64,000 nucleotides of DNA from Sipunculus nudus. Taxonomy: Eukaryota; Annelida; Sipuncula; Golfingiida; Sipunculidae. Under the pieces are notes generated by a model that was not told the origin of the DNA, ran no database searches, and saw nothing but the letters and a program-made list of their open reading frames with translations. The DNA lies in contig CM049321.1 of NCBI GenBank assembly GCA_026874595.1, positions 370,479-434,478 on the forward strand. The letters are read 5' to 3'. Positions 35,111 through 62,866 of the stretch are shown one piece after another (position 1 is the stretch's first letter; each line of letters starts with the position of its first letter). A program made the position numbers and the translations under genes.

Positions 35111-35521
35111 CCGGCCTCTGGACGCGTAGTTGCCAGTGCCTAGCCTATAAATGCATGTTACTAAATACTGCACAGTCAAACTAGACGATGACTGTGGACG
35201 TGTTTACCAGATCTCTTGATTGTACCCTTGTACTCTGCATTTAAAGACAGATACTACTATCAACATTTGTGCTAGGATTATATACACTACTGCATGCGTT
35301 GTGATTTACACAAAAGTGCCATTCATGATGACTTTAAAGCATTGGTGAGTAAATTTCACTATCAAATTGTATTATCGCTCACGGAATTTAAAAGATCGCA
35401 CTGAGTTGAACTCTGGACTCTGCACTGTTGAATCATGTCTTCCAGTAGAAAGTAACTGATCTTTTATGAGCCTCAACATACTGAACATTTTACAGTGATA
35501 TTTTGAAATAAAAAAAGCAAA
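35111..35521 (+). promoter_or_regulatory. Presumed 5'UTR/promoter of the J-domain LINE
   Basis: The stretch between family B copy 2 and the ORF1 ATG has no other feature. It contains CCTATAAATGC near 35145, which could be a TATA-like element, although most LINE promoters are TATA-less. The 5' end of the element cannot be fixed from one copy. Confidence 0.35.
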
Positions 35522-38485
35522 ATGACAAAAAGTGAAATACTTGAAGCGTTAAAAGTACTTCAACTCTCTGATAATGCATCAGTTGACGATATTCAAAACA
35601 GGTATCGTGAGCTAGCGGGGAAGTACCATCCCGACAAAAACAAAGATAAATCAGCTATAAAAACATTCCAGGAAATGTCCGCTGCGTTTCGAGTTCTGAC
35701 CATTGAGCTTAATGATGAGGTACAAGCCTACCAACAACACAGGGTGGACATAAAAGAGAATACATCCTCTCTAACTGTGCATCTTGATCCCAAAACACTA
35801 CTAGTTTGGCTTGAAGTATGTGAAGAGTTTTACAAAACAAAACCAGTACCAAAACATCCAGGAAAAATAAAGCATGGACTGCAATTTAAAAGTGGCTACT
35901 GTTCAACAGTTGATAAAGTGTTATATGGGTCTATTTCTCTCACATTCTACAAATCTACAGCAAATCTGTTAGTCCAAGGAAATTCATATATGTTGTGGCA
36001 CTCCGAACATTTTCCTGTTCTCTGTGAACAAGTTGACAAACTTTACACAAACGACAAAGAAAAATGGCTCCTTCTAGCAGATAAGGAACAGATAGGGATC
36101 AAAAGAGTGGTACAAACTGATAATGAAAATGATCTTTGTGGCAATAACTGTGAAGCTGAAAATCAGATCAATGAAGTTTCAGTAAAATCTTCTTCACCCA
36201 AACTTTCAGAAAATCCCTTGACACCGTTATTATTAAGACTCAGCACTGGGGAAACATGTACACAACATAACCAACAAGTGCTACTTGCTGACTCGCCCGT
36301 GTCACAATTATGTCGAGATGACGGGGATGAACTGCTTGCATTGAGTGACATAACATACACAGAACTAGATAAATCACAGTCAAAGAATACATTGATGGTG
36401 ACACATGATGAAACACAAGATGGTACAAGCAGCGGTCAAATTAATTATGAAACTAAAGCAGAGGGTAACCTACAAGCGGAACATAATGGAGATATGTTGG
36501 CTGATGACGATAGCATGAGAAAGGGAGACAAAAAGAAAAAATGTAGGGAAAAGTTTGTTGATATTCGTTGCATTATATGCATGGAATGGACAATGGTGCC
36601 TGAAAAAGAACTACACGGTAGTGTTATGTATACATGTAAGAGGTGCAGGGAAATGCCAACAAAGCTGAACTCTGTATATGAAATCCTTAAACTAATGTCG
36701 GATGAACAACAAAAACAAAGAGAGCTAACAGAAAAGCTCCAAATGATTCATGATGAAAACTGTGCATTGAAACTGGAGCTGACTGGCCTACGGACGCTAA
36801 ATGACGCTCACACGGTCAAAGAGAAATCCTCAAAAGGTACTCAAGTGGACTCGTCACCAATTAACAGTGATCAGATTATTGAGCAGGTGGGCCAGGCTAT
36901 GACAATAGTATCACCAGCAAATACCCAACCAAAGAACAAGATTAGCTCGACTACAAAAAGCACTTCATGTAATGATTCAGTATTGGTTGTAGGGGATTCC
37001 ATACTACGGGAGCTGAATAATGCACACACTGACAAAGAGCTCTCCTCAAAAAGTACCCAAGTGAACTTGTCACCAATTAGCGGTGATCAGATCAGTGATC
37101 AGGTGGGCAGCGCTATAACAACGGTAACACCAGCAAATACCCAACCACAGAACAAGATTAGATCGGTTACAAAGAACACCAATAAAACAAAGAATAATAG
37201 AGTATTGGTTGTTGGGGATTCCTTACTAAGACCGGTGAAAACGAAATCACTTGCACCGTCAACGCGAATCCGCACACTCCCAGGTGCTACCATTAATGAT
37301 GTGGAAAGTTACATCTCGGTTGATAAAATTGTGTGCTTAGTCGGTACAAATGATTGTTCTCTTCGTGGGGCTAATACTGACAGGATACTCCATGATTACA
37401 AAAGACTCATCAAAACATCCAAGCAAATTTGTAATGATGTTACAATATTAAGCATCCCTCCGAGGATGGACATTACTGAACACCAAAATATGTGTGAGAA
37501 GGTCAATAAAGCTCTAAAGGATACATGTGAAGCGCTATCCTGTAAATCTGTTGACAATGACCAAACTTTCCTACTTGAAAATGGTTCTATTAACAAACAT
37601 CTGTATCAGACGGATGGTTTGCATTTCTCAGTTCGGGGGACACTGGCATTATTGAGTAATCTGGCGTGTGCTGACCCTGAAATTGTTGTTGATCAAATGA
37701 ATGGCCTTGACGAAAAGGAATTTTCACAGTACTTTGATCAGAAAAGTAACACCAAAGATTACACTCTCCATAACAAGAATCACGAGGAATGGCCCCCACT
37801 TCCTCGTCCAGGGGCTGAAATAAGGCGACATCGATATAAGACAGGAGAACGAAGAAATTATGGACCCCGACATGGTAAGACCATGAAAAGTTTTGTTAGG
37901 ACGGGTGATGAAAATCAACATCATGGATGGAATCCCTGGCAACGAAATTACCGTCGTGCGGCTGATGCCTTGATAAACAGAGAGTTGGAGCCCGATAGAC
38001 TTGAATACCAGGGAAATGTTCCCGTGTTTCTCCCAATCGAGAGTAGGTTTACCCCTGGTCATCCCTACACTCTAACACCTCCACTAGACCGTCAACCAGG
38101 AACATCCAACCCGGGTACACAAGCAAACACACACGCGGCATATGTATCGCAGTACAATGAACTACATAAAGTTTACCCAGATCGGACTAAATATTTTCAA
38201 CAGTCACGACGAAATGTGCCTTTAAATTCACACAACAGCCAGTCGACTAATACAAGCGCATTCCATCAGCGGTATTTACCACGTCAGGAATACGATTACA
38301 GTATTCTACAATGTGCTGCATGTGGGCAAATTGGTCATACAGCTGAACAATGCAGAAAACAAAACGGACTCATGTGTTTCCATTGTGGTAGCATAGGACA
38401 CAGATATGAGAACTGTCCTGTCCGCATCAGTCATGTCAACCAGGGAATCAAACCCCCTCCTAGGAATCCCATGTGGCATAGGTAA
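35522..38485 (+). CDS. Retrotransposon ORF1: J-domain, Cys4 finger, esterase-like, two CCHC knuckles
   Basis: An intact 987-residue frame, read as the ORF1 (RNA-binding/chaperone) protein of a CR1-like LINE. Residues 5-60 are a J-domain with HPD at 36-38 in KYHPDKNKD and a helix III-like segment after it; J-domains recruit and stimulate Hsp70. Residues 135-165 (LTFYKSTANLLVQG, then W159) look like a conserved but unnamed module. Cys350, 353, 372 and 375 form a PHD/RING-like finger followed by a coiled coil (about 385-425). Residues 561-715 resemble an SGNH hydrolase: GDS at 565-567, GTND at 608-611 and DGLH at 698-701, so a Ser/Asp/His set is present. CCHC knuckles are at 931-944 and 952-965. 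Finger plus esterase is known in CR1 ORF1; I know no standard LINE with a J-domain. A tandem duplication lies before the esterase. Confidence 0.88.
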   Translation: MTKSEILEALKVLQLSDNASVDDIQNRYRELAGKYHPDKNKDKSAIKTFQEMSAAFRVLTIELNDEVQAYQQHRVDIKENTSSLTVHLDPKTLLVWLEVCEEFYKTKPVPKHPGKIKHGLQFKSGYCSTVDKVLYGSISLTFYKSTANLLVQGNSYMLWHSEHFPVLCEQVDKLYTNDKEKWLLLADKEQIGIKRVVQTDNENDLCGNNCEAENQINEVSVKSSSPKLSENPLTPLLLRLSTGETCTQHNQQVLLADSPVSQLCRDDGDELLALSDITYTELDKSQSKNTLMVTHDETQDGTSSGQINYETKAEGNLQAEHNGDMLADDDSMRKGDKKKKCREKFVDIRCIICMEWTMVPEKELHGSVMYTCKRCREMPTKLNSVYEILKLMSDEQQKQRELTEKLQMIHDENCALKLELTGLRTLNDAHTVKEKSSKGTQVDSSPINSDQIIEQVGQAMTIVSPANTQPKNKISSTTKSTSCNDSVLVVGDSILRELNNAHTDKELSSKSTQVNLSPISGDQISDQVGSAITTVTPANTQPQNKIRSVTKNTNKTKNNRVLVVGDSLLRPVKTKSLAPSTRIRTLPGATINDVESYISVDKIVCLVGTNDCSLRGANTDRILHDYKRLIKTSKQICNDVTILSIPPRMDITEHQNMCEKVNKALKDTCEALSCKSVDNDQTFLLENGSINKHLYQTDGLHFSVRGTLALLSNLACADPEIVVDQMNGLDEKEFSQYFDQKSNTKDYTLHNKNHEEWPPLPRPGAEIRRHRYKTGERRNYGPRHGKTMKSFVRTGDENQHHGWNPWQRNYRRAADALINRELEPDRLEYQGNVPVFLPIESRFTPGHPYTLTPPLDRQPGTSNPGTQANTHAAYVSQYNELHKVYPDRTKYFQQSRRNVPLNSHNSQSTNTSAFHQRYLPRQEYDYSILQCAACGQIGHTAEQCRKQNGLMCFHCGSIGHRYENCPVRISHVNQGIKPPPRNPMWHR
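36788..37231 (+). repeat. Tandem duplication inside ORF1 (about 72 codons x 2)
   Basis: Residues 423-493 and 495-567 are diverged copies. Both start LR.LN.AHT, continue through STQV or GTQV, SPI, DQI, QVG and PANTQP, and end VLVVGDS. The first copy stops just after the esterase block I serine, so that motif occurs twice but only the second is followed by the rest of the domain. The frame is kept across the junction. Confidence 0.9.
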
Positions 38486-38497: not shown

Positions 38498-41089
38498 AAG
38501 TCGGTTCATAAAGCCTCCTTGGAATTAAATAACACAAAAACAGCAAAATCAAGTGACCGCATTAAGATTGGACATATCAACAGCAGAAGCATGATGAATA
38601 AGTTTACGGAACTTCAGAAAATAATCATTGAACAAGATTTTGATATATTTTGTATTACTGAAACTTGGTTGACTGATTACGTGGATAGTTCTGAAATTCA
38701 ACTTGATAACTACCTACTTTTCCGAAATGACAGAGCATCCCATGCTGGTGGGGTCTGTATATATGTGAAATCAAGATTTAAAGTGACACCGCACAAAGTT
38801 AATAAGTATACATATGTTGAACTCATCAGTGTTGACGTCGAACTGAGCAGCAAATTACAAATAACGTTATGTTGTGTATATTGTCCATCATCCGATAGTG
38901 CAAATTATGACGAACTTTGTGAAATATTAGAATGTGTCGTAATTGGAACTAATGAGACCATTATTCTAGGTGACTTTAATATGGACATTACAGACATAAA
39001 TTCTATTGGTTATAAGCGATCAGTAGAAATATGCAATCTCTTTAATTTTGATCAACTAATACGTGAACCAACAAGAGTTACTAACACATGTAGCACACTT
39101 ATAGATCATATTTACTCAACTCTACCTAAATTGCATATTTCAAGTGGAGTATTACAATAAAATGTCCATGGCTGACTGACGATCTGATCCACTTAATGCA
39201 TGAACGGGATGCTGCACATAAACTTGCATGTAAATACAATGATCCCTACCTCATGACGGTATACCGCTCCTTACGTAATCAAGTAACTACTTTTACTCGC
39301 GACGCTAAACGTGAATTCTTCTTTAGTAAAAATTGCAGACGCTAAAGGTAACCAAAAACTAATGTGGAAAGTAATACGCTTTGCCCTTAATAAAAACAAT
39401 TCTAGCTCTTCTAACACAATAACAGCATCACAATTCAACGAGTATTTTGTCGACATTGGTCCTAAACTTGCATCTAAAATTAAAAATTCATGTGAAAATC
39501 ACATTCCAGAGCTTAAATCACAAAATTGCATATTTAAATTTACTTCTATCCAAGAAAATGAAATATTATGGCAACTTAAAAATATGCCGAATTTTTTTAA
39601 TATAGATATTTTAGGTGTAGATGCGTATTTGTTAAAACTAGCTGCAGAAGAGCTCACGCCTTTCATATGCACCATAGTTAACATGAGTTTAGAGGAAAGT
39701 ATAGTTCCTACAGATTTAAAACAGGCAAGAGTTACGCCAATTTATAAAGGGAAAGGACCTGCGGATGATCCATGTAATTATCGCCCGATTTCTGTAATTT
39801 CACATGTAGCTAAAATAATGGAAAAAGTGATTCACCAGCAGTTATATTCATTTATTCATGATAACAAACTTTTAGGTCCATCACAATCGGCATTCATAAA
39901 ACAACACTCGACCATTACGTCACTACTTAGCAGTACATCTGATTGGGTTAAAGCATGCGACAAAGGACATATAACAGTAGTTTGCTTTCTTGATATTTGT
40001 AAATGTTTTGATTCAATATGTCACACTAGGCTACTTTACAAGCTTTATAAATATGGAATACGGAATCGAGAATTAGAGTGGTTTAAATCGTATCTAAGTA
40101 ATCGAACTCAAGCTACTAAATATAATGGATCAATTTCTGACTGTTCGCAGATTTCTATGGGAGTCCCTCAAGGTTCTGTTCTCGGACCACATTTATTCTT
40201 AATTTATCTTAATGATGTTTGTAACATACCAAAATTTAGTAACATTAGCCTATTTGCTGATGATACATGCTTATATGTGTCTGGTCCCACTATTGAGTCC
40301 GTTACACAGAAAATTCAAGTTGATATTAATAGAATATCTGAATGGTTTCGAGTGAATAAACTCACGATAAATACAGAAAAATCCTACCTAATGGTCATTG
40401 GAAGTAGACAAAAATTATCTAAAATTACATCATCATATCCACCTATTTTGTTAAATGATGCAGTCCTACGGTATACTGATAATGTTCAATATCTCGGATT
40501 AACACTTGACAGTTGCCTTACATGAAGAGCACATATCAATGAACTTGCTTCCAAATTTAAACCTAAACTAGGCGCTCTCGCTCGTCTGAGTAAAGTTTTA
40601 CCTTCACAGGAACTCGTTCATATTTATATGACCACCATACAACCCTATATTGATTACGGTTTAATCATTTGGGGCCATCAAAGCCAAACAAATATGAACG
40701 TTCTCCAGAAATTCCAGAATAGAGCTGCCCGTATAATTTCTGGGAATTATGATAGGAATACAGCTAGTTCAACATTGATATCAGCCTTAAAATGGCAAAA
40801 AATCAATCAACGATTATTGTACCTCTCTAATATATTCATGTTTAAATGCCTTAATGGTCTAGCACCTTGTTATCTTAATTATCTATCAGAAACCCGATCT
40901 GAAATACACTCTTATAACACGAGATACTCTTGTCAAGTGAAAGTACCAACAGTTAGAACTGAATTGATGCGAAAATCTTTTATTTATCAGGGACTGAAAT
41001 TATGGAATTTGTTACCGGAAGCTCTTCGTAAGATAGATAATCTAGATAAGTTCAAAAAAGATCTTAAGCAATATTCACTAAACACTTGA
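38498..41089 (+). pseudogene. Retrotransposon ORF2: AP-type endonuclease plus reverse transcriptase, broken
   Basis: The endonuclease portion (38519-39160) shows metal and active-site residues Asn (HINSRS), Glu (ITETW), GDFN and LIDHIYS, but stops at GVLQ before the SDH motif expected next. The following 39160-39345 reads in another frame (CPWLTDDL onward), so part of the linker appears deleted. A further frame change near 39330-39345 returns to the reverse transcriptase (39311-40525), which has RPISVIS, motif A LDICKCFD, motif B PQGSVLGP and motif C FADD. An in-frame TGA follows LDSCLT at 40523. The C-terminal part continues to 41089 (IDYGLIIWG, PEALRKIDN). Domain order and motifs fit the CR1/Jockey group. 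It cannot make a working protein, although all reverse transcriptase motifs survive. Confidence 0.92.
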
Positions 41090-41356
41090 CATAATTACAA
41101 TAAATCTATTATACCACTTTTACATGTTATGCATGCATTTTGATATTTTATGCTTTACGAATACCAATAAGTGAATTAACACTAACATAACTTAGCATAC
41201 ATTGCACTTATGGTTTATATTATTCTTTGCACTTATTTCATACAATGTTAGCAACATTGTTAATAACCTGAATATCCTATGAATATCTAAATAATATTCT
41301 ATAATAAACTCCTAATAATGATCATACTAGTACAGGAAATAACAATATATGTTTTA
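41090..41356 (+). other. Presumed 3'UTR of the J-domain LINE
   Basis: AT-rich and without frames, lying between the ORF2 stop and the left arm of the palindrome. No clear terminal microsatellite or target-site duplication is visible; the palindrome may have replaced the true end. Confidence 0.45.
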
Positions 41357-41534
41357 AGCGTCAATAAAGCTTGGGCCTTTGCCACTCTCCTTTTCTTGGT
41401 TTTGACTGTGGTCAGTATGGCTTGACATTCTTAGTGCATTCTTGTACTCACTGTGTCTCTGAACACATTTCTGATCACCATACCATACAATGTTACGAAG
41501 ACAAATGTTCAGGGAAAAATACTGGGCCGGGACG

Positions 41535-41588
41535 GGATTCGAACCCATGTCGGTGGCGCACATGACCGGCGTTCAAACCGCTTCGCTA
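41535..41588 (-). repeat. tRNA-like SINE head, left-arm copy
   Basis: Mirror image of 43906-43959. On the minus strand it has box A TAGCGAAGCGG and box B GGTTCGAATCC. See the right-arm copy for the reasons it is not called a tRNA gene. Confidence 0.65.
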
Positions 41589-41692
41589 GAAAGGCAAGCT
41601 TCACTAGCGAGACAGTTCAGTCCACTTTTATGTCACCCCGTAACAAAAAACACTACGCCATCAATAACCAACTTGTCATATCGTAACGATCC

Positions 41693-42213
41693 TCAGGCAG
41701 CCTGACCTTTAGGCTTCGTCGCGCATGCCTCACATATTCTAAAAAAATCCTTCTCGACATAAACAGAAGATTTAAATTGTCGTTCGATTAGCGTGCTTTA
41801 TGAAGAACTTCATCTTTATCTGTGAAGCGTTCAAAACGAACAATGGTTGGTCTAGGTTTGTCATTTTCCTACCATGGTAGACGATGTAGTCGCCAGATGT
41901 CGACACTTTCTTTATCAGGAAGTTTGAGTTGCTCTTTAATTACATACGCAATTACCACTTTTGTTTCACATTGTTCCCAGGTCTCTTTTTTTTTAGACTG
42001 GGCTGTATTACGGTTATCAGTTGTGCTGTTAGGGATACCTGAATCATGGAGAGCCTCAGCGATGCTCGTCAGGTGGATGTCTCCACCCAATAACACCCTC
42101 AAGTCGCCACTCTCAGGCCTATCTAGCCTGGCGTGCGTTGGTCGGAGTGTCCGTGGTTGATTCGGTGTCATTCGGGTTTGTTTTCACATCTCCACTAAAC
42201 ATTAGAACCATGG
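41693..42213 (-). pseudogene. LINE ORF1 fragment, left-arm copy
   Basis: Mirror copy of 43280-43801, with the same internal TAG and the same start of frame. The two copies differ at only a few bases. See the right-arm entry for the domain reading. Confidence 0.75.
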
Positions 42214-42439
42214 CAATAATGTTTATACATTGCAAATATATTAATAAATAGTTCCATTTATGAGTTCACCATAAAATATCATACCCTTGTTTAAAATTAA
42301 CTCTGTACATAATTGTAATATATTTGAAATTTGATTAAGTCATTTGTTGGAATGTGTCGTACAAATGCTTAAACTATATATGTGTGTGTGTGTGTGTGTG
42401 TGTCTGCGAGTCATCCCCTGGCATATGGCTGTCCAATAC

Positions 42440-42800
42440 GAATTTCGGACACGAAAATTCCCCGGTCGGAAACCAAATATATCGTTCGGATCTGGTATAA
42501 ATGAAATTTCGAATGCGACAGGATTTTAGTTGGAACGACAGAAATATTCTTTCGTTTCAAATTCGTTCTGACGCATCCGGTGTGAAACCGCCTTAAATAA
42601 TCGCGGCTGACTGACTGACGGACTGTGAGTATACCATAAAGGCGGTTTCCCAAGGGATGCGTCCCAACAAATATTACACGAACAAATATTTCTGTGACAC
42701 CGACTAAATTTCTGTCTCATCTGAAGTTATCATTTCCACCTAGACCGAAAGATATTTTTGGTTTCCGACCGAGGAATTTTCGTATCCGATTTCCAATATA
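42440..42800. repeat. Imperfect inverted repeat inside the palindrome spacer
   Basis: The reverse complement of about 42440-42600 matches about 42636-42800 in order: AAGGCGGTTTC, GGATGCGTC, AATATTTCTGT, CATTT, TTTGGTTTCCGACCG and GGAATTTTCGT. Similarity is moderate, much lower than between the outer arms. The spacer thus looks like an old fold-back element lying at the centre of a recent palindrome. Confidence 0.75.
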
Positions 42801-43085
42801 TCGGATGACTTCAATACAGGTTCAATACAGGTCGTCACTTTATCATTAAGGCATGATATAGGAAATATATTTCCATGATATTTCATGACGAACAGAACAG
42901 TTATAGACTCAAGATAAGAAATTAAGGCAAAAATAAGAAAATAAAGCACCATTTCCTGGAAGGCTAGTAAAATTAAAACAGTTTCTTTATGTTTTGTACT
43001 TCGTCGAATGCTTTATTAACTCCTAAGTCTTCGTTAATGTCCAGAGGTGTCAATTTTTCTTCGAGGGTGGGGGGATGACTCGCAG

Positions 43086-43118
<33 letters not shown>

Positions 43119-43279
43119 GTTTAAGCATTTGTACGACACATTCCAACAAATGACTTAATCAAATTTCAAATATATTACAATTATGTACAGAGTTAATTTT
43201 AAACAAGGGTATGATATTTTATGGTGAACTCATAAATGGAACTATTTATTAATATATTTGCAATGTATAAACATTATTG

Positions 43280-43801
43280 CCATGGTTCTAATGTTTAGTG
43301 GAGATGTGAAAACAAACCCGAATGACACCGAATCAACCACGGACACTCCGACCAACGCACGCCAGGCTAGATAGGCCTGAGAGTGGCGACTTGAGGGTGT
43401 TATTGGGTGGAGACATCCACCTGACGAGCATCGCTGAGGCTCTCCATGATTCAGGTATCCCTAACAGCACAACTGATAACCGTAATACAGCCCAGTCTAA
43501 AAAAAAAGAGACCTGGGAACAATGTGAAACAAAAGTGGTAATTGCGTATGTAATTAAAGAGCAACTCAAACTTCCTGATAAAGAAAGTGTCGACATCTGG
43601 CGACTACATCGTCTACCATGGTAGGAAAATGACAAACCTAGACCAACCATTGTTCGTTTTGAACGCTTCACAGATAAAGATGAAGTTCTTCATAAAGTAC
43701 GCATAATAGAACGACAATTTAAATCTTCTGTTTATGTCGAGGAGGATTTTTTTAGAATATGTGAGGCATGCGCGACGAAGCCTAAAGGTCAGGCTGCCTG
43801 A
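43280..43801 (+). pseudogene. LINE ORF1 fragment (L1-type RRM region), right-arm copy
   Basis: The open part runs 43322-43624 and continues in frame through one TAG to 43801. ESVDIWRLHRLPW, then KPRPTIVRFERF, then DKDEVLHKVR resemble the RRM/C-terminal region of L1-type (transposase 22) ORF1 proteins. There IE..HR.G is followed by RP..VRF and K..VL. Just upstream, in another frame, is FSGDVKTNP, similar to the 2A-like D(V/I)E.NPGP motif at the start of some LINE proteins but lacking the final GP. With a TAG and a frame break the fragment is dead. It may belong to the same element as the endonuclease relic at 44500. Confidence 0.7.
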
Positions 43802-43905
43802 GGATCGTTACGATATGACAAGTTGGTTATTGATGGCGTAGTGTTTTTTGTTACGGGGTGACATAAAAGTGGACTGAACTGTCTCGCTAGTGAAGCTTGC
43901 CTTTC

Positions 43906-43959
43906 TAGCGAAGCGGTTTGAACGCCGGTCATGTGCGCCACCGACATGGGTTCGAATCC
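43906..43959 (+). repeat. tRNA-like SINE head, right-arm copy
   Basis: Box A TAGCGAAGCGG at 43906-43916 and box B GGTTCGAATCC at 43949-43959 have tRNA-like spacing. The 3' side (GTCCCGGCCCA) finds no pairing 5' acceptor strand, so this is a tRNA-derived SINE head and not a tRNA gene. Confidence 0.7.
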
Positions 43960-44499
43960 CGTCCCGGCCCAGTATTTTTCCCTGAACATTTGTCTTCGTA
44001 ACATTGTATGGTATGGTCATCAGAAATGTGTTCAGAGACACAGTGAGTACAAGAATGCACTAAGAATGTCAAGCCATACTGACCACAGTCAAAACCAAGA
44101 AAAGGAGAGTGGCAAAGGCCCAAGCTTTATTGACGCTAGTATGTTATTTGTATAGTGTCCTGCTGTTGAGTAACATATAAGTAGTTACCAATCTAACAAT
44201 CAAGATGTCAATGTCAATACTTCTTTTTACTCATATAAAAACTGGGAGGTCAGTGATACAAACGCTCATGTAATTTCTGACACTGAAACTGTCATTGTTA
44301 ACCATGAACATTTAATTTGTATTTCAGATCACTAAAAATTAGGGTATCAGGTGACATAGTCCTGCACAGTATCAAATTGTAATTCTGTGCAGACTGTTGG
44401 GGACCATACGCACACTAACAGAGCTAACCTAGAGACGGGAAAGTTGCACACTAACAATTAAGATAAGAATGAACATGAAATGATGAAACACGGGGGAAA

Positions 44500-61192: not shown

Positions 61193-62866
61193 TTAAGAAA
61201 ATAAGTATATCTTGAGAGCACGCTTAAATGATTCAATATGTGTACACGCTCTTACAGAGTCTGGTAAAGAATTCCATGCGGTGCCAGCGTACTTGGAAAA
61301 TTGTCTGTCACCATATACATTATGGGAGCGAGGTACACAGACTATCCTGTGAGCATCAGAAGAACGAAGAGACCTGCGGGGAGAATATTCCACAAACAGT
61401 TGGCGCAAATACAGTGGATACAGGCTATCATTCAGCGCTTTATACACCTGTGTGAGGACTTTAAATGTGATTCTCCTTTCGGCAGGCAGCCAGTGAAGCT
61501 GTCTTAGAACAGGTCCGATGCAGTCGTACTTCCTGGACCTTGTAAGTAATCGGGCTGATGCGTTTTGTGCAAGTTGGAGGCGATGGATGTTAGCATTGGA
61601 AGTTCCAGTTAGCAGGCTGTTGTTGTTGTCCAATCTTGATGTAATCAGTGCGTTGATGGTCTTTGCAGCTGTCTGGTCATCAAGATGGTTCCGGATCTTA
61701 CCAATTCTGCGAAGATGGTAAAAAATGTTCTTCACGACTGATCTTGTCTGACACTCCATACTCATATTCGCATCGAAATTGGCCCCAAGATTTCTGACAG
61801 TGTGTACTGGTCTTATTTCTGCACTACCAATACAGATCTTAGGTTCAGCGCTAAGGATCTTATTAAGATGGTACCTGGGTGATATGATAAGGAGTTCGGT
61901 TTTGGAATCATTCAATTTTAGTTTGTTCTTAATCATCCACGCTCTAACACCAGCTGCACATTGTTCAATCTTCCTCAGGGATTGAGCAAGGCCGTGCTGG
62001 TCACTGAGTTTGAAGAATTCATAAAGTTGGGTGTCATCAGCGTATCCGAGTCTATGTACACCGAAGGCTTCGACAACTCTACGCAGAGGAAGGATGTAGA
62101 TAAGAAATAACAAAGGACCTAATACTGATCCTTGCGGCACTCCCACAGTGAGCATGGCTGGATCAGATAGTACACCACTGAGGTTAACACGGTGAGTGCG
62201 AGTTGTGAGGTATGACTTGCACCAATCCAGTGCTGAACCTTGAATGCCAACTTCCTCAACTAGTCTCTCAATTAGGATGCCATGGTCTAACGCATCGAAG
62301 GCTGCAGAGAGGTCAAGCAGAAGGAGTACTACTCCCTGGCCTGTATCCAGTGCATGGTCAATATCATTCTTTATCCTTATCAGTGCTGTTTCTGTGCTGT
62401 GCCTTGGTTTGTAGGCGGATTGGAGAGGATCGTGGAGTTGATTCTGTGTCATGTGGTCCTGGATCTGCTTTGCAACCACTCTCTCCAGCAATTTGCTTAC
62501 GAACGAAAGATTTGCCACAGGACGATAGTTCTTCAAATCCTCTTGGTCAAGACCATCCTTCTTCAAAAGTGGTGTTATAAGAGCTTCTTTCAAGCAAAGT
62601 GGTACCTCGGATGATGTAATTGAGGTATTTATTACAGATGTAAGGCATGGCAATAATGAACGTAGCACAACAGGATTTTTCAGAAGATTTGTTGTCAAAG
62701 GATCCAGGCTACAGGATTTGTTTGGACTTTTCTGGATGAATTTCTGCAGCTCCTCGGAGGATACTGGATGAAAAGTGACCATAGCAGGCGGGGGTGCTCC
62801 GTGGGACGTCCTGATCAAATCCATATCTACACTTGTGCTATCCAAGTCATTTCGAATCTTCAACAC
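61193..62866 (-). CDS. Reverse transcriptase region of ORF2 (L2-clade LINE), open
   Basis: An uninterrupted 557-codon frame. Residues 95-140 carry LITPLLKKDG and NYRPVANLSFVSKLLERVV; motif A is LDLSAAFD (184-191), motif B PQGSVLGP (244-251), motif C YADD (275-278). The thumb and C-terminal region include WLPAERRITFKVL and end at LKIYLFS. The sequence before the first Met (TSKVLKIRNDL) is still LINE-like, so the Met is not a true start and the protein lost its endonuclease by 5' truncation. All catalytic Asp residues are present. No promoter is expected, so it is probably silent, but the open frame indicates a young insertion. Confidence 0.92.
   Translation of the reverse strand: MLKIRNDLDSTSVDMDLIRTSHGAPPPAMVTFHPVSSEELQKFIQKSPNKSCSLDPLTTNLLKNPVVLRSLLPCLTSVINTSITSSEVPLCLKEALITPLLKKDGLDQEDLKNYRPVANLSFVSKLLERVVAKQIQDHMTQNQLHDPLQSAYKPRHSTETALIRIKNDIDHALDTGQGVVLLLLDLSAAFDALDHGILIERLVEEVGIQGSALDWCKSYLTTRTHRVNLSGVLSDPAMLTVGVPQGSVLGPLLFLIYILPLRRVVEAFGVHRLGYADDTQLYEFFKLSDQHGLAQSLRKIEQCAAGVRAWMIKNKLKLNDSKTELLIISPRYHLNKILSAEPKICIGSAEIRPVHTVRNLGANFDANMSMECQTRSVVKNIFYHLRRIGKIRNHLDDQTAAKTINALITSRLDNNNSLLTGTSNANIHRLQLAQNASARLLTRSRKYDCIGPVLRQLHWLPAERRITFKVLTQVYKALNDSLYPLYLRQLFVEYSPRRSLRSSDAHRIVCVPRSHNVYGDRQFSKYAGTAWNSLPDSVRACTHIESFKRALKIYLFS

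Follow-up and report, generated by a model that had tools for sequence, protein, structure and literature searches.

LINEs of the CR1 and L2 lineages provide the closest described systems for the element reported here, which lies in a stretch of 64,000 nucleotides analysed as a whole (the window). The survey of Metcalfe and Casane 2014 (PMC4120745) distinguishes five types among the ORF1s of 448 Jockey-superfamily elements, and the table in the part of that paper covered here names CCHC, RRM, PHD, Tnp22, esterase, coiled-coil and zinc-finger/leucine-zipper domains, with no J-domain among them. For zebrafish ZfL2-1, Schneider et al. 2013 (PMC3905857) give an ORF1 with an esterase and a coiled coil, and the article nowhere mentions a J-domain. 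As in these Type IV ORF1s of CR1/L2 elements, the window ORF1 lies ahead of an APE endonuclease and a reverse transcriptase and combines a coiled coil with an SGNH esterase bearing the Ser, Gly/Asn and Asp/His blocks, and like some ORF1s of the CR1/L2 lineages, which have a PHD, a zinc finger or a leucine zipper, it contains a finger (PMC4120745 and PMC3905857, in the parts covered). Compared with Type IV, it adds an N-terminal J-domain, a second conserved domain (here domain 2) and C-terminal CCHC knuckles.

On the side of the J-domain, the class C J-domain proteins (DNAJC) are similar in that an HPD-bearing J-domain is joined to unrelated domains, but the window protein is encoded by a mobile element and places the J-domain inside an RNA-packaging protein. 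The closest working analogy is the polyomavirus T antigen, in which a parasite's own J-domain sits in a replication protein (PMC13254874, in the part covered), although this is a DNA virus protein with other domains and no kinship is claimed. Section 8 of that 2026 review of J-domain proteins describes the use of the Hsp70 machinery by phages, polyomaviruses, HSV-1 and Plasmodium, and no retroelement appears there. Several papers sharing DnaJ and retrotransposon terms concern, in the parts covered, other matters: a host J-domain protein, SILENZIO, described as a silencer of Arabidopsis transposons (PMC8616336; also the subject of PMC10881000), a mite gene family (PMC7738191) and the human ZAP interactome (PMC4441479). 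The literature searched, with subscription journals, preprints and Repbase entries lying outside it, gave no report of a J-domain in a LINE ORF1, in line with the first-pass annotation of this DNA, which knew of no standard LINE ORF1 with one.

Layout of the element and its ORF1

The element is a two-ORF non-LTR retrotransposon (LINE) with a predicted APE-type endonuclease and reverse transcriptase. ORF1 is one unbroken frame encoding 987 aa (35522..38485, + strand, as are all parts of the element given below), preceded by a 5' untranslated region (35196..35521) whose beginning is the left limit of similarity to five other copies. After a gap of 33 bases, ORF2 follows with an endonuclease part (38519..39157; PF03372, 4.7e-11), a reverse transcriptase part ending at a stop (39311..40525; PF00078, 1.7e-34) and a 3' remainder (40628..41089, from the ORF list and profiles). 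The 3' untranslated region, to the extent that the window copy retains it, was placed at 41090..41356 by comparison with other copies. ORF2 is broken in the window copy, with frames stopping at 39160 and 40525, and 258-259 bases that two other copies retain are missing at 39159.

Beyond the order of ORF1, endonuclease and reverse transcriptase on one strand, the dispersal is that of a LINE, i.e., the copies are scattered, some lack the 5' part and the long ones have a common 5' limit. When aligned to the window with blastn, L082, L084, L093, L094 and L096 all begin to match at window base 35196, and these five have about 16 more near-identical bases upstream that are missing from the window copy. 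Given this common limit in five copies, the J-domain moves within the mobile unit, behind a leader of about 326 nt. At the other end, both copies examined (L140 and L141) extend about 166 bases past 41356 to a simple-repeat (AATA)n tail, before which the window copy is cut.

The cut 3' end adjoins a pair of inverted arms of about 645 bases that are 99.2% identical (41357-42000 and 43493-44137), and the LINE's own 3' tail does not resume beyond this segment (41357-44137). Elsewhere in the window are a second reverse transcriptase fragment at 61760-62662 (-), 35% identical to the element's reverse transcriptase, and a weak tblastn match recurring at 1314, 4893, 8998 and 13226, a spacing of about 3.6-4.2 kb suggestive of a large tandem repeat at the window's start.

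The first-pass annotation had placed a J-domain with an HPD motif at the N-terminus of ORF1, and profile, sequence and predicted fold all bear this out. PF00226 matches the whole protein at 51.2 bits against a curated cut-off of 27.8 (E 1.3e-13), with the J-domain occupying residues 1-62 (35522..35707) and the HPD motif residues 36-38 (35627..35635), between helices II and III. By sequence, the nearest solved J-domain is that of DNAJC5 (1.3e-8), while the J piece of a relative, P0038, has DNAJB12 as its nearest solved match (6.4e-15). The predicted structure of the window's J region, a check for which the same annotation had called, is a helical hairpin with the J fold. Several relatives have a helix IV ending in EYD, making their J-domain fuller than the one in the window. 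As such, the predicted ORF1 product is a class C J-domain protein as well as a LINE ORF1 protein.

Domain 2 (residues 79-196, 35756..36109) is conserved, has no Pfam match and is predicted to adopt an alpha/beta fold with a weak likeness to TBP/KA1/BamC. A search of solved-structure profiles with this domain returned one chance-level match (E 0.66). Domain 2 is an undescribed conserved domain, which we assign to no fold family.

The remainder of the same frame likewise agrees with the first-pass annotation, which had listed a Cys4 finger, an SGNH-esterase-like domain and two CCHC knuckles in it, with an endonuclease and reverse transcriptase 33 bases downstream. Judged by alignment with relatives, the Cys4 finger (residues 348-382, 36563..36667) is a reduced form of their PHD-like finger, which PF00628 matches weakly and below its cut-off. 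The finger is followed by a probable coiled-coil stretch placed by the same alignment (residues 383-425, 36668..36796); the corresponding stretches of relatives match many coiled-coil models, all below cut-off. The SGNH esterase-like domain (residues 560-715, 37199..37666; PF13472, E 2.5e-8) has GDS, PGA, GTND and DGLH blocks in the alignment. Among aligned rows with a residue at the position, the catalytic Ser is present in 29/35, Gly in 28/29, Asp in 23/25 and His in 25/25, and ORF1 thus has a predicted SGNH esterase with its catalytic blocks, as in Type IV ORF1s. A tandem duplication within ORF1 (36788..37228; copies 36788-37006 and 37004-37228, 79% identical) repeats a GDSxLR stretch just ahead of the esterase domain. 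The two CCHC zinc knuckles (residues 930-969, 38309..38428) match a profile below its curated cut-off and retroviral nucleocapsids in a profile search of the PDB.

The J-domain in genomic copies and relatives

The host genome (1.43 Gb) holds at least 57 segments matching ORF1. With residues 1-197 as query, domain 2 was found in nine loci and the J-domain in all nine, as the first-pass annotation had proposed to check in other copies. At a tenth locus (L101/L085, C16:1278486-1280196, -), the J-domain (residues 1-59) is joined directly to residues 479-987, and this junction is either a deletion or the result of a spliced transcript having been copied back. The HPD letters are kept in 7/10 genomic J copies, one of which (C2) has a stop just after them, and are lost in C15 (HPG), C7a (NPD) and C7b, where the motif is gone. 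Such losses and stops are expected of dead copies, though they lower the count of intact J-domains.

PF00226 has 54 matches in the genome, 8 of them in element copies. Uninterrupted J-domain frames of 379 and 388 aa occur on small contigs (L106 and like places on C72, C74, C77 and C79), with further J-domain frames on contigs C61, C62, C83, C89 and C90. L106 reads as a bacterial-type DnaJ, so that the assembly may hold bacterial contigs.

Proteins from other genomes carry the same head. A search with ORF1 residues 1-300 returned two proteins, P0001 (55% identity) and P0002 (35%), both with J-domains. When the J-domain was excluded by seeding with residues 100-240 of P0002, i.e., with domain 2 (219 candidates), 38 proteins including the query were obtained and PF00226 was found in 34 of them. 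In the remaining four, the P0008 model begins inside domain 2, and P0015, P0025 and P0027 have N-termini that are not alignable to the J region, being unrelated or post-J. One predicted protein, P0038, joins the J-ORF1 head to an endonuclease domain. A profile search with the J part removed (A2) returned P0001 alone among the best 7992 candidates and missed P0002, a member of the profile's own alignment.

These results bear on whether a host DNAJ exon was fused by chance to one copy. The closest match in the genome outside the element is 48% identical over 52 residues, and the presence of the J-domain in 9/9 domain-2 copies and in 34/38 proteins found through domain 2 leaves such a fusion with hardly any likelihood. 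We reject it, since these copies and most relatives carry the J-domain and it lies inside the common 5' limit; the first-pass annotation's reading of it as part of the element, not a host exon at a single locus, holds. The J-domain belongs to ORF1 as a built-in and conserved part, both in the element and in related proteins of other genomes.

Conservation was assessed on 40 sequences (the 38 from the domain 2 search, the window and P0001), with the J region covered in 36. In agreement with the first-pass annotation's expectation for relatives, HPD is kept in 35 of these 36, the exception being P0023 (HSD). K25, R29 and K33 are each found in 90% of those non-redundant rows that have a residue at the position. 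The window J-domain departs from the lysine of most relatives at two of these positions, with Q25 and G33, a difference that could weaken docking to Hsp70. One could read from it that the J-domain no longer has an Hsp70 function and serves structure or tethering instead (pseudo-J, type IV), and pseudo-J proteins do exist; however, they are defined by a replaced HPD (PMC13254874, in the part covered), the very motif that nearly every covered sequence retains, and we consider this reading improbable.

Across 31 rows (non-redundant at 85%), the mean identity of pairs is 0.52 in the J-domain, 0.585 in domain 2, 0.515 in the finger and 0.45 in the esterase, as against 0.185 and 0.17 in the two linkers that flank domain 2. 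J distances correlate with those of domain 2 (r 0.76, p 0.0002; r 0.56 when the window and P0001 are left out) and with those of the esterase (r 0.77, p 0.0002).

We also compared the element with other ORF1s of the same genome. P0010, a protein that stops short of the esterase, has matches to many genomic ORF1 frames that are limited to the finger and coiled coil, and those of P0034, also many, extend from the finger through the esterase. From such loci, 24 were fetched and translated (L116-L139), and several contain open frames about 400-650 aa long that have a different N-terminus and show the blocks GDSM and DNLHLNKKG. Neither the J-domain nor domain 2 was detected in any of the 24 by tblastn with 15 J-domains and 15 domain-2 pieces (positive controls 6/6). 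In L117, L128 and L139, for instance, a PHD-like finger, a coiled-coil stretch and the GDSM and DNLHLNKKG blocks are as in the window ORF1, but the N-terminus is another one, with neither J-domain nor domain 2. The head formed by the J-domain and domain 2 is thus a module carried by a single lineage, set on an ORF1 chassis that is widely shared.

ORF1s that bear an esterase are frequent in this genome, as at L117, L128, L139 and similar loci. In the part covered of Metcalfe and Casane 2014 (PMC4120745), vertebrate groups are the only ones reported to have the esterase type, a range that is then too narrow if the host genome is non-vertebrate.

Selection on the J-domain and its origin

The first-pass annotation had proposed to test for purifying selection on the J-domain. 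We counted distinct substitutions relative to the majority codon in six copies (window, C9, C3, C2, C13 and C17), leaving out C15, C16b, C7a and C7b as loci that are degraded or do not span residues 1-690. Residues 1-62 have 7 synonymous, 3 nonsynonymous and 2 stop changes, giving a nonsynonymous/synonymous ratio of 0.19 (p 0.0057), the lowest of seven blocks and the only one with p < 0.05. Residues 63-78 gave 0.22 (p 0.15), the finger with the coiled coil 0.31 (p 0.053), domain 2 0.61, the esterase part 0.85 and the linkers 1.48 and 0.99 (the last four all p >= 0.05). Pooled over residues 1-690 the ratio is 0.66 (p 0.025), and the J-domain differs from the rest by Fisher's test (p 0.04). The J ratio comes to 0.24 (p 0.0035) when eight copies are counted and to 0.44 (p 0.011) when all ten are, including the degraded C7a and C7b.

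Pairwise NG86 ratios for the J-domain are 0.40 and 0.55 for the two C7 copies against the window and 4.46 between C7a and C7b, the last resting on one synonymous change; in the same table, the C16b row extends beyond the alignable part (residue 59). Higher J ratios with the broken C7 copies are as expected of dead copies. With 12 events in six copies the test has low power, and domain 2 and the esterase part show no significant constraint in it. The counts, small and mostly from dead copies, are consistent with selection having maintained the J-domain while the element moved.

As to where the J-domain came from, a tree of 40 J rows and 63 columns places 25 relatives together (97/94), while the window and P0001 fall outside this group, on a long branch that also holds J rows from hosts, bacteria and viruses. 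A single clade of all 27 J-domains is not rejected (p-AU 0.386), and neither is a control grouping of the 25 relatives with L104 that leaves out the window and P0001, which fits worse (p 0.077). There may have been two separate captures of a J-domain ahead of the same domain 2.

A scan of viral contigs with profile A1 kept 80 of 236 confirmed loci, the listed query ranges lying within residues 3-113, mainly in the J part, and ten of the 80 were placed as rows in the tree. The corresponding scan with domain 2 confirmed no locus (11 pattern stretches). A giant-virus source was rejected, since the viral matches are mainly to the J part and domain 2 found none.

A candidate role in the LINE particle

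Recruitment of Hsp70 is the simplest function for this J-domain, given that HPD is kept and that HPD changes abolish Hsp70 stimulation in J-proteins (PMC13254874, in the part covered). The ribonucleoprotein particle (RNP) is the likely client because the J-domain sits on the RNA-packaging ORF1 protein, and Hsp70 at a LINE RNP has a precedent in human L1, for which HSPA8 and HSPA1A are listed as associated with ORF2p and not ORF1p (PMC5821459, Table 1, as covered).

We propose that ORF1p would self-associate through its coiled coil and coat the element's RNA by means of the CCHC knuckles, perhaps together with domain 2, and that many N-terminal J-domains would be held outward from the particle. 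Through helix II and HPD these would bind host Hsc70/Hsp70 and stimulate it to hydrolyse ATP on clients within the RNP, whether ORF1p itself or ORF2p. The purpose would most likely be RNP remodelling, with ORF1p kept assembly-competent and then loosened so that ORF2p can reverse transcribe. That a J-domain LINE ORF1p recruits Hsp70, chiefly for such remodelling, is in our judgement the probable reading, with appreciable room for error.

Two other targets can be considered. Hsp70 might be recruited mainly to fold or activate the ORF2p reverse transcriptase, not to remodel ORF1p. The hepadnaviral reverse transcriptase needs Hsp40/Hsp70, the L1 chaperones just cited are listed with ORF2p, and in this element ORF1 and the endonuclease frame are 33 bases apart on one strand; against this, the J-domain is on ORF1p and these data contain no physical link to ORF2p, so we regard an ORF2p target as rather unlikely.

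The J-domain might instead counter host defence, with Hsc70 engagement disturbing chaperone-dependent silencing, such as the loading of Argonaute or PIWI proteins; Hsc70/Hsp90 act in Argonaute loading. The conserved HPD makes Hsp70 a likely target here too, and the host J-protein SILENZIO is described as silencing transposons in Arabidopsis (PMC8616336, in the part covered), but no sequence feature points to a silencing factor and a freely diffusing decoy would need no fusion to an RNA-packaging protein. This we hold to be very unlikely.

Returning to Hsp70 recruitment for RNP remodelling, the fact that related proteins of other genomes also retain the J-domain suggests that such elements supply a chaperone recruiter of their own. 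A bolder proposal, for which we would put the prospects a little short of even, is that an old LINE branch encodes its own Hsp70 co-chaperone, with HPD-dependent Hsc70 recruitment, which an undescribed, RNA-holding, TBP/KA1-like domain would aid, being required to assemble and then open the particle. If true, this would be the first retrotransposon with a chaperone component, as far as the literature searched reaches. The roles of LINE ORF1 and the opening of the particle for reverse transcription are still poorly understood, and an ORF1 with its own J-domain names both a host partner (Hsp70) and a small site for testing it (HPD). Such an ORF1 may directly reveal a dependence for which other LINEs rely on J-proteins of the host.
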